Source: Candidatus Desantisiibacteriota bacterium
GTDB lineage: Bacteria > JACRDZ01
Direction of reading: 5' to 3'
DNA: 11,399 bases
Assembly (NCBI GenBank): GCA_016209155.1
Contig: JACQWU010000118.1
Span: 1 to 11,399, forward strand
A program made the position numbers and the translations under genes. This document shows positions 2,015 to 9,195 of this stretch, one piece after another; within the stretch, counting starts at the first letter, position 1; every line of letters begins with the position of its first letter. The notes below the pieces were generated by a model. The model saw only the letters and a list, made by a program, of their open reading frames with translations. It was not told the origin of the DNA and searched no databases.

Positions 2015-2653
2015 ATGTTTACAGGTATTATTGAAGAAGTGGGAAAGATAAAAAAAATTGAATATGACGGTGAAGGCCGAAAATTAATAGTAGAAGCGCA
2101 TAAAATAATGTCTGATATAAAACAAGGTGAGAGCATTGCGCTTGATGGAGTATGCCTTACTGTTGAATCATGGGGCAAAGATTTTTTTGTTGTATATGTC
2201 ATGCCGGAAACAATGAAAAAAACAGGCTTTCTTAATCTCAAGGTCGGACAATTAATAAATCTCGAAAAAGCGCTTCCGCTAAATGGCAGACTTGGGGGAC
2301 ATTTTGTTCAGGGACATGTTGATACAACAGGGACTATCACTCAGATTATCCCTGACAGTAAAGCTAAAATTATAAAAATATCTATTCCTTTTGAATGGAA
2401 CAAATACCTTGTCCCAAAGGGTTCAATAAGTATTAACGGTATAAGTCTTACAATAATAGAAGCAGAGAAAGATTTTTTCACCGTTTCTATTATTCCTCAT
2501 ACACAGAATATTACCAATATTGGAAACAAAAAAATTCATGATACAGTAAATATAGAATTTGATATTTTAGCTAAACATATAGTAAAATTAGTTACTCCAA
2601 TGGTTTCTTCCGGACTGACACTGGATAAAATAAAAGAAATGGGGATAAGATAA
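2015..2653 (+). CDS. ribE: Riboflavin synthase, alpha subunit type
   Basis: Riboflavin synthase dismutates two molecules of 6,7-dimethyl-8-ribityllumazine to riboflavin and the pyrimidinedione that is recycled. It is usually a homotrimer in the cytoplasm. At 212 residues it has the normal length and the two tandem lumazine-binding repeats. Repeat one starts with the canonical MFTGIIEEVG and contains SIALDGVCLTV and GGHFVQGHVDTTG (residues 94-106). Repeat two contains GSISINGISLTI (136-147) and IIPHTQNITNIG. The start is supported by an AGAAGGAGAG site 3-12 bases upstream. The symbol follows the ribDE-BA-H naming; the same enzyme is called ribC in E. coli. The next gene, ribBA, follows only after a repeat-bearing 210-base gap. 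Confidence 0.96.
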   Translation: MFTGIIEEVGKIKKIEYDGEGRKLIVEAHKIMSDIKQGESIALDGVCLTVESWGKDFFVVYVMPETMKKTGFLNLKVGQLINLEKALPLNGRLGGHFVQGHVDTTGTITQIIPDSKAKIIKISIPFEWNKYLVPKGSISINGISLTIIEAEKDFFTVSIIPHTQNITNIGNKKIHDTVNIEFDILAKHIVKLVTPMVSSGLTLDKIKEMGIR

Positions 2654-2680
2654 TATATACAACAAATTTATTGGAATATT

Positions 2681-2770
2681 TGTAGGGGCACCCCTTGCGG
2701 GTGCCCTAAATATAGGGACCATAAATAAACAATATAGCGAAGCAGGGCAGGTGCAAGACCTGCCCCTACA
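2681..2770. repeat. Inverted pair of REP-like hairpins (BIME-like) between ribE and ribBA
   Basis: The element is bounded by exact 10-base inverted repeats, TGTAGGGGCA at 2681-2690 and TGCCCCTACA at 2761-2770. Each end is itself a hairpin headed by GTAG. The left unit has GTAG at 2682-2685, stem GGGCACCC at 2686-2693, loop CTTGC at 2694-2698 and GGGTGCCC at 2699-2706. The right unit reads on the minus strand as GTAG (2766-2769), stem GGGCAGGT, loop CTTGC, ACCTGCCC, covering 2745-2765. Stems are perfect 8-mers and the loops are identical, while the stem sequences differ. A GTAG head plus a hairpin in inverted pairs is the known architecture of REP/BIME elements moved by RAYT transposases. It could also attenuate transcription or block mRNA decay between ribE and ribBA. 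Confidence 0.85.
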
Positions 2771-2805
2771 TTACCCATAAATTTGCTGATACCCAATAAG
2801 TTTAA

Positions 2806-2835
2806 TTTACAATATATAATAAAATATGATATAAA
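2806..2835 (+). promoter_or_regulatory. Possible sigma70 promoter of ribBA
   Basis: TTTACA at 2806-2811 and TATAAA at 2830-2835 are separated by 18 bases, about 28 bases before the ribBA ATG. The region is very AT-rich and also holds other TATAAT-like hexamers (2815-2820, 2836-2841), so the exact boxes are uncertain. A separate promoter is plausible because the hairpin pair separates ribBA from ribE. Confidence 0.35.
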
Positions 2836-2863
2836 TATAATTTCATTACAAAAGGATTAAAAA

Positions 2864-4066
2864 ATGCATTTTGATAAAATTGAAGACATTATTAAAGATA
2901 TAAAAAAAGGGAAAATGGTAATAGTTGTTGATGATGAGGATCGCGAAAATGAAGGGGATCTTGTCATGGCAGCGGAAAAAGTCACTCCGTCAGCAATAAA
3001 TTTTATGGCTAAATACGGCAGAGGACTTATATGTATGCCGCTTTTGAGTTCACGACTGGATGAACTAAAAATACCTTCAATGGTACCGGATAACTCCGAT
3101 CATCTGGAAACAGCTTTCACAGTATCAGTTGATGCTAAACCGGAAACATCTACGGGCATTTCCGCTCATGACCGTGCGGCAACAATTAAAAAAATTATTG
3201 ATCCTTATGCAACACCAGAAGGTTTCGCACGCCCCGGGCATATTTTTCCTCTGCGTGCCCGTGACGGAGGAGTGCTCACCCGTGCAGGGCATACTGAAAC
3301 TGCTGTGGATCTTGCCAGAATGGCAAATCTATATCCCGCAGGTATTATTTGTGAGATAATGAATGATGACGGGCATATGTCACGTCTTCCTGAATTGAAA
3401 AAATTTGCCGCAGAACATAAATTAAAAATTATTTCAATTAAAGAATTAATAGAATACAGACAGAAAAAAGAGTGTTTTATAAGACGTATTACAGAAACAG
3501 TCTTACCTACAGCATTCGGAGATTTTAATCTGGTTTTGTATGGAACGACAATAGATGATAAAAATCATATTGCTCTTATTAAAGGGAAAATAGAAAAAGG
3601 GAAAAGTATCCTTGTGCGGGTACATTCGGAATGTCTTACCGGAGATACATTTGGTTCATTGCGCTGTGATTGCGGACAGCAGTTTAAACATTCAATGGAT
3701 TTGATAAACAGAGAAAAGTGCGGAGTTCTTCTTTATATGCGACAGGAAGGAAGAGGAATCGGTCTTGTGAATAAAATGAGAGCATACGCTTTGCAGGACA
3801 AAGGTATGGATACTGTTGAAGCAAATAAAGAACTTGGTTTTAAAGATGATTTAAGAGATTACGGAATAGGAGCACAGATACTGGCTGATCTCGGACTTTC
3901 GAAAATCAGACTTTTAACAAACAACCCCCGCAAAATAATCGGACTTGAGGGATACGGACTAAAAGTTGTTAAACGTGTCCCTATAGAAATCGCTCCTAAT
4001 AAAATGAATAAAAAATATTTAAACATAAAAAAAACAAAACTCGGACATATGATAGAAAATGTGTAG
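2864..4066 (+). CDS. ribBA: Bifunctional 3,4-dihydroxy-2-butanone-4-phosphate synthase / GTP cyclohydrolase II
   Basis: RibBA makes both starting units of riboflavin: DHBP from ribulose 5-phosphate, and the pyrimidine precursor from GTP. The 400-residue length is typical. The N-terminal DHBP synthase domain (about 1-200) has the acidic metal loop [10 protein letters not shown] (23-32), [15 protein letters not shown] (140-154) and [11 protein letters not shown] (164-174). The GTP cyclohydrolase II domain (about 205-400) has zinc ligands Cys257, Cys268 and Cys270 in [17 protein letters not shown], the RQEGRGIGL motif (293-301), [11 protein letters not shown] (330-340) and LLTNNPRK (350-357). 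All key residues expected for both activities appear present. An AAAGGA site at 2851-2856 supports the start. Lumazine synthase (ribH), often the next gene, is absent here; a mutase-like gene follows after 18 bases. Confidence 0.97.
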
Positions 4067-4918: not shown

Positions 4919-4927
4919 GTGATAACA

Positions 4928-5004
4928 AGCAATGAGTGATGAGCAATTAGCAATGAGTGATGAGTGGTTTTTAACTCATTGCCCATTGCCAGGTACTCAT
5001 TGCT
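4928..5004. repeat. Cluster of direct and inverted AGCAATGAGT repeats
   Basis: A 16-base direct repeat, AGCAATGAGTGATGAG, occurs at 4928-4943 and 4949-4964. Inverted copies of its first part follow: ACTCATTGC at 4974-4982 and ACTCATTGCT at 4995-5004. The copies can nest as an outer stem (4928-4937 with 4995-5004) and an inner stem (4950-4958 with 4974-4982). It fills the gap between the two mutase genes. It may be a slippage-derived or dispersed short repeat; the fold could also affect transcript stability. Confidence 0.75.
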
Positions 5005-5024
5005 TCTTTTCATAACGGAGCCAC

Positions 5025-9115: not shown

Positions 9116-9195
9116 CAAGGTAGGTGCAATCTCCTGATTGCGATTTTTTTCATAATCGAACGAATTATCGCAATCAGGAGATTGCTCCTACCTTG
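9116..9195. repeat. Near-perfect 29-bp inverted repeat made of two REP-like hairpins
   Basis: Arms at 9116-9144 and 9167-9195 match as inverted repeats with a single mismatch (9125/9186), around a 22-base centre. Each arm contains its own hairpin after a GTAG head. The left reads GTAGGT (9120-9125), GCAATC, TCCT, GATTGC (to 9141). The right, on the minus strand, reads GTAGGA, GCAATC, TCCT, GATTGC (9191 to 9170). It has the same GTAGG head and inverted-pair layout as the element at 2681-2770 but a different stem. It lies between the zinc-ribbon gene and the ATPase promoter and could also act as a transcription barrier. Confidence 0.85.

Follow-up and report, generated by a model that had tools for sequence, protein, structure and literature searches.

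REP sequences of the GTAG super-family, and their paired arrangements, the REPINs or BIMEs (Di Nocera 2013, PMC3733652; Bertels and Rainey 2011, PMC3116915), are short GC-rich palindromes with a GTAG head. They occur as facing pairs, in many copies, with a linked RAYT gene and with occasional in-frame copies inside genes. REP sequences have been described as species-specific (Quentin 2018, PMC6006769). TnpAREP subclass 2.4 of the same study corresponds to RAYT group 4 of Bertels 2017, and the presence of REPs in frame inside tnpAREP is a published feature of this subclass (Quentin 2018, PMC6006769). Palindromes in frame in protein genes are also a feature of the Rickettsia palindromic elements (RPE; as summarised in PMC3733652), but that summary does not mention a cognate RAYT with the element inside it. 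The TnpAREP enzymes of Stenotrophomonas (Sm) and Marinomonas (Mb) depend on the GTAG, on certain bases of the loop and on a stem without mismatches, while the stem sequence is largely free (PMC8266576). The published biochemistry covers groups 2 and 3, and in the literature no biochemistry was found for group 4 RAYTs.

Here, we describe REPINs with the loop CTTGC, one of which lies in a riboflavin gene cluster. They share all the named features of the GTAG REP and REPIN systems, and differ from them in that they occur in an uncultured lineage and that near-identical 25-mers recur across lineages reported as different phyla. The matching transposase has these hairpins within its gene as well, which makes the CTTGC REPINs a new family, with its cognate RAYT identified, of an established type of small mobile DNA. 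Taken by itself, the element in the riboflavin cluster is a mobile hairpin pair of the ordinary sort; it is of value as an entry to the group 4 RAYTs, which are common and many of which have their substrate within their own coding sequence.

The hairpin pair between ribE and ribBA

The window, the whole stretch of 11,399 nt that was analyzed, contains in this order mnmG (gidA, cut), ribD, ribE, a gap of 210 nt, ribBA, and further genes. The features at the junction are:

2015-2653, plus strand: ribE, riboflavin synthase, two lumazine-binding domains (PF00677, E 4.6e-49)
2654-2863, plus strand: ribE-ribBA gap, 210 nt, with the REPIN inside
2681-2770, no strand assigned: REPIN, two GTAG REPs in inverted orientation with their heads outward (TGTAG ... 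CTACA), resembling a mobile unit
2682-2706, plus strand: left REP, head GTAG at 2682-2685, stem 2686-2693/2699-2706 (GGGCACCC/GGGTGCCC), loop CTTGC at 2694-2698
2707-2744, plus strand: spacer of 38 nt, with the part TAAATAAACAATATAGCG common to REPINs on contigs C104, C273 and C96
2745-2769, minus strand: right REP, head GTAG at 2769-2766, stem GGGCAGGT/ACCTGCCC, loop CTTGC
2864-4066, plus strand: ribBA, DHBP synthase / GTP cyclohydrolase II (PF00926 and PF00925)

As had been predicted, two GTAG-headed hairpins with perfect but unlike 8-bp stems and the same loop face each other in these 90 bases. The left arm reads GTAG-GGGCACCC-CTTGC-GGGTGCCC (plus strand, 2682-2706) and the right arm GTAG-GGGCAGGT-CTTGC-ACCTGCCC (minus strand, 2769-2745). 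Each head is preceded by a T. Both arms have the GTAG at the foot of a short palindrome by which GTAG REPs are recognized (GTAG or GTGG being allowed). The predicted difference between the stems was found, and could be narrowed to the inner four base pairs, the outer GGGC/GCCC being nearly invariant in the CTTGC family.

Folding of positions 2675-2776 as DNA yielded -21.6 kcal/mol, compared with -12.2 +/- 2.2 for shuffled sequences (z = -4.2; 0/200 shuffles were as good), and folding of the hairpin region as RNA gave z = -3.1 against shuffles. The DNA fold, together with the copy number in the genome and an empty control with the reversed pattern (see below), argues against a chance origin of the hairpins.

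The CTTGC family in the genome

The genome assembly comprises 3.08 Mb on 352 contigs and is 79% complete. The pattern GTAGGGGCN4CTTGCN4GCCC had 37 exact matches and 50 matches within two mismatches, while the same pattern read backwards had none. The original prediction had counted on a multi-copy element and on GTAG-linked hairpins elsewhere in the genome; 50 hairpins were found, and further GTAG-linked hairpin families exist.

The contig stretches that were read contain 18 facing pairs of the CTTGC family, the window's included. Their spacers form subfamilies, and the window pair groups with pairs on C104, C273 and C96 (two). The boundaries of the window unit were obtained from the alignment with these four members: the spacers align inside the units, whereas the 37-nt flanks directly outside are at 0.29-0.33 identity, which is chance level. 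Conserved spacers between chance flanks are the pattern that would be expected if inverted two-REP units had spread by moving as GTAG...CTAC.

The hairpins are dispersed and mostly intergenic, with 37 of 44 scanned copies outside ORFs of at least 100 amino acids. The seven inside ORFs include two in the cognate RAYT gene (see below), as well as in-frame copies in genes for a type I restriction R-subunit-like protein, a YgjP-like protein and a U32 peptidase. In-frame CTTGC-family REPs were seen in an HsdR-like (type I restriction R-subunit-like) and a YgjP-like ORF (L052, 14583-15728 and 11797-12576), a TIM-barrel ORF (L054, 1353-2186), a Big_5 ORF (L060, 1960-3762) and a U32 peptidase ORF (L068, 1842-3872).

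The cognate RAYT

Six Y1 transposases were found in the genome with PF01797; three of these are associated with GTAG hairpins of other families, and CTTGC hairpins accompany none of the six. PF01797 alone thus failed to find the cognate gene, because embedded hairpins split the domain. Success came with a profile built from 17 Y1 proteins that have CTTGC pairs inside their ORFs, which were collected by intersecting hairpin coordinates with Y1 matches in other genomes. It identified G000:C186:20295-20882 with an E value of 6.3e-68. The HUH motif and a single Tyr motif are both present in this one ORF, in the order MPNHLHG (HUH), VGAGLAPAL...RAGARPAPT, which is encoded by an in-frame CTTGC pair, and WQRNYYEHIIR (Tyr). 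Further CTTGC REPINs flank the gene on both sides. A Y1 gene flanked by the same hairpins had been anticipated; the in-frame pair inside its coding sequence had not.

NCBIfam and Pfam both point to a REP-associated tyrosine transposase with significant E values, but, because the insert splits the domain, the protein scores below the cut-offs of the two models, with 76.3 bits for NCBIfam REP_Tyr_transpos NF047646 (E 2.2e-21, curated cut-off 80) and 20.5 bits for PF01797 (E 5.6e-4, cut-off 23). The RAYT profile matches the TnpAREP structure 4ER8, which is also the best PDB match of the AlphaFold model of a relative, in which a confident core is combined with a low-confidence insert at about residues 100-148. 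By its features rather than by the published class HMMs, the C186 protein is assigned to the RAYT/TnpAREP enzymes of the subclass 2.4/group 4 type. With subclass 2.4 it and its relatives share the HUH and single-Tyr core, a variable insert between the HUH strand and helix alpha-C, in-frame REPs, two-arm and double-foot REP types, and a patchy spread across phyla. There is no difference in kind, and what is added here are frequencies, a comparison of the arms and an association between loop and linker.

At default thresholds, PF01797 misses or under-scores RAYTs with embedded REPs, the cognate gene included, and therefore this class may be under-annotated. A further RAYT of the same genome with its own REPINs (GGTCAGACATTCCTGTCTGAC; L076, G000:C89:3000-8500, 2133-3233, minus strand) shares a single open frame with pieces of a restriction-modification gene of the Eco57I type, which is split over three frames at this locus.

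Embedded hairpins in related RAYTs

Eighty GTDB loci and loci from genome searches yielded 100 RAYT ORFs with both the HUH and the Tyr motif. A GTAG hairpin lies between the two motifs in 89 of them, and an embedded hairpin was found in 57 of 69 RAYT loci of a second, new sample; these fractions are not unbiased, because resemblance to embedded RAYTs was the criterion by which both samples were chosen. Among the 89, the sense-strand GTAG is in codon phase 0 in 35 of 37 two-arm or single-arm inserts. Phase 2 would create a TAG stop, so that only phases 0 and 1 are informative. Double-foot inserts are common in both samples (32/89 and 26/57).

Of 386 genomes from across the domain, 89 have a match to the group 4-type RAYT profile (E <= 1e-20). 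The whole CTTGC hairpin pattern recurs in 25 of the 386, compared with one match for the reversed control. Across lineages, the hairpin class follows the similarity of the linked RAYTs, which is what co-inheritance alone would give.

In two RAYT ORFs (L140 and L135) the insert between HUH and Tyr contains tandem peptide repeats (QIQGEH... and RAGLEPVTN...), a picture that amplification of REP-derived segments within the gene for the transposase would give. At G206:C2:2300405-2302062, three adjacent matches to the RAYT profile follow each other on the same strand.

Covariation of the stems and comparison of the arms

Stem covariation was quantified with 38 distinct CTTGC hairpins from many lineages, for which the search pattern left the inner 4+4 nt free and prescribed the head, the loop and the outer stem. 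Of the inner stem cells, 123 of 152 pair, compared with a mean of 61 and a maximum of 85 in 10,000 shuffles. An independent count found 95.1% of the cells paired and 62 double-change cells, against 20.4 in shuffled and at most 18 in slid controls. The inner-stem covariation score was 0.462 versus 0.155 for shuffled sequences, with far lower values in the slid controls. Related sequences can inflate such counts; the 38 hairpins come from many families. Because the search fixed head, loop and outer stem, evidence for their constancy comes only from how often the pattern as a whole recurs. The original prediction had combined a compensated stem change with a fixed head and loop; the first part is borne out by the covarying inner pairs, and the second is in part a product of the search design. 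As far as comparison of sequences goes, the predicted reading, selection or enzyme recognition of structure plus GTAG, is supported, with the loop as a probable addition.

The embedded two-arm REPINs were compared with no loop imposed. Pairs of arms with the same loop and different stems outnumbered those with the same stem and different loops by 20 to 3 (p = 0.0005), and the inner stems differ in 42 of 49 (28/30 in the first and 14/19 in the second set). These values would also result if identical arms paired into one long hairpin and collapsed to a double-foot palindrome, so that divergence of the arms was selected for stability. The high frequency of double-foot forms agrees with this explanation, as does the suggestion of a central deletion as their origin (Quentin 2018, PMC6006769). 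However, identical arms exist (C220; L304, L316, L318 and L361), and in the window's genome pairs with the same stem, 3 of 18 versus 4.8 expected, are not significantly depleted (P = 0.16), so that selection for unlike stems inside this genome is not supported. Overall, we regard selection for stability as a rather unlikely cause of the unlike arms.

Loop and linker

Loops ending in GT accompany a W-x(1-3)-F motif in the linker between alpha-C and the Tyr. In the exploratory set, in which the motif was noticed, the motif was present with 20 of 25 GT-ending loops versus 0 of 64 others. At held-out new loci, for which the rule had been written down first, the numbers were 13 of 14 versus 1 of 43, and Fisher tests were strong in both sets. 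A RAYT tree built without linker and insert, however, contains only two to three supported independent contrasts, and therefore common descent could explain the association. For the same reason, the rule was rejected as proof of recognition. Tentatively, the alpha-C-Tyr linker of subclass 2.4/group 4 enzymes might read the REP loop, with W-x(1-3)-F ("WPPF") corresponding to GT-ending loops (CTTGT, CCATGT and CCCTGT) and linkers without the motif to CTTGC and other loops. If so, substrate and reader would be inherited together, because the gene has its own REPIN inside, and nature would have provided a series of enzymes with their matching hairpins from which a recognition code could be read.

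Proposed mechanism

The window element is very probably a REPIN of the CTTGC-loop family, in which two GTAG REP hairpins form an inverted dimer, and the explanation that we favour includes its mobilization in trans by a RAYT. It would most likely be non-autonomous and moved by the C186 RAYT. By analogy with IS200/IS605 and the studied TnpAREP enzymes, each arm would fold into a hairpin on single-stranded DNA, and the RAYT would recognize the GTAG, the paired stem and the loop bases, and would cut and rejoin beside the heads. The stem sequence would matter little as long as it is paired, and therefore the arms would differ by compensated changes. The sequence evidence for group 4 fits the same recognition logic as that of the Stenotrophomonas and Marinomonas enzymes. 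In dozens of cases enzyme and substrate can be matched, the head being fixed, the stem covarying and the loop specific to the class, so that the recognition of REPs by RAYTs becomes directly testable.

It is very improbable that, instead, the REPIN has lost its mobility and persists because of a host function such as mRNA stabilization or gyrase binding, with stem covariation arising from an RNA or cruciform function. Host roles of REPs have been described in enterobacteria (cited in PMC6006769 and PMC3733652), and the hairpins here lie at gene ends. But the hairpin class follows the linked RAYT across lineages, and hairpins lie inside RAYT genes and, in this genome, in ORFs of at least 100 amino acids in 7 of 44 cases. 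An additional host role is compatible with both observations.

The ribE-ribBA junction

The original prediction that the element separates ribE from ribBA held: the two genes are 210 nt apart in the window, with the REPIN in the gap, versus 0-8 nt in three same-phylum genomes, in which the printed junctions contain no hairpin. Because of these short, hairpin-free junctions, the gap is most simply taken as derived in the window's lineage; the relatives, however, belong to other families, and the REPIN does not account for the other 120 nt of the gap. The mobile REPIN would thus have entered the junction and parted genes that are nearly adjacent in relatives. Its activity and the direction and timing of its movement are inferred, and the altered relative expression of ribE and ribBA considered in the original prediction is a possibility.

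That the pair is a cis-acting RNA element of the riboflavin operon (an attenuator, terminator or FMN-type riboswitch) controlling ribBA is highly improbable: it does lie between rib genes and its transcript would hold two strong hairpins, but it matches no Rfam family, about 50 copies are dispersed at unrelated sites, it is absent from the same junction in the three same-phylum genomes, and a terminator or promoter role was rejected, as no terminator was found in the gap and promoter-like sites are at chance level there. A secondary effect of the REPIN on mRNA stability is possible.

Further features of the window

A second facing pair of GTAG hairpins (GTAGG[A/T]GCAATCTCCTGATTGC) is located at 9116-9195; its arms are 97% complementary. 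This second type has 17 matches within two mismatches in the genome, and its pairs on C34, C51 and C65 also differ by a compensated stem change (AATC versus AGTC). An imperfect 39-nt inverted repeat of AATGAG/GCAATGAG-like units lies at 4920-5012, between ORFs of 277 and 646 amino acids. The ORF at 7808-8383 matches an AbiEii-like nucleotidyltransferase (PF08843, E 8e-9) and may belong to a toxin-antitoxin pair of type IV or to a phage-defence pair.
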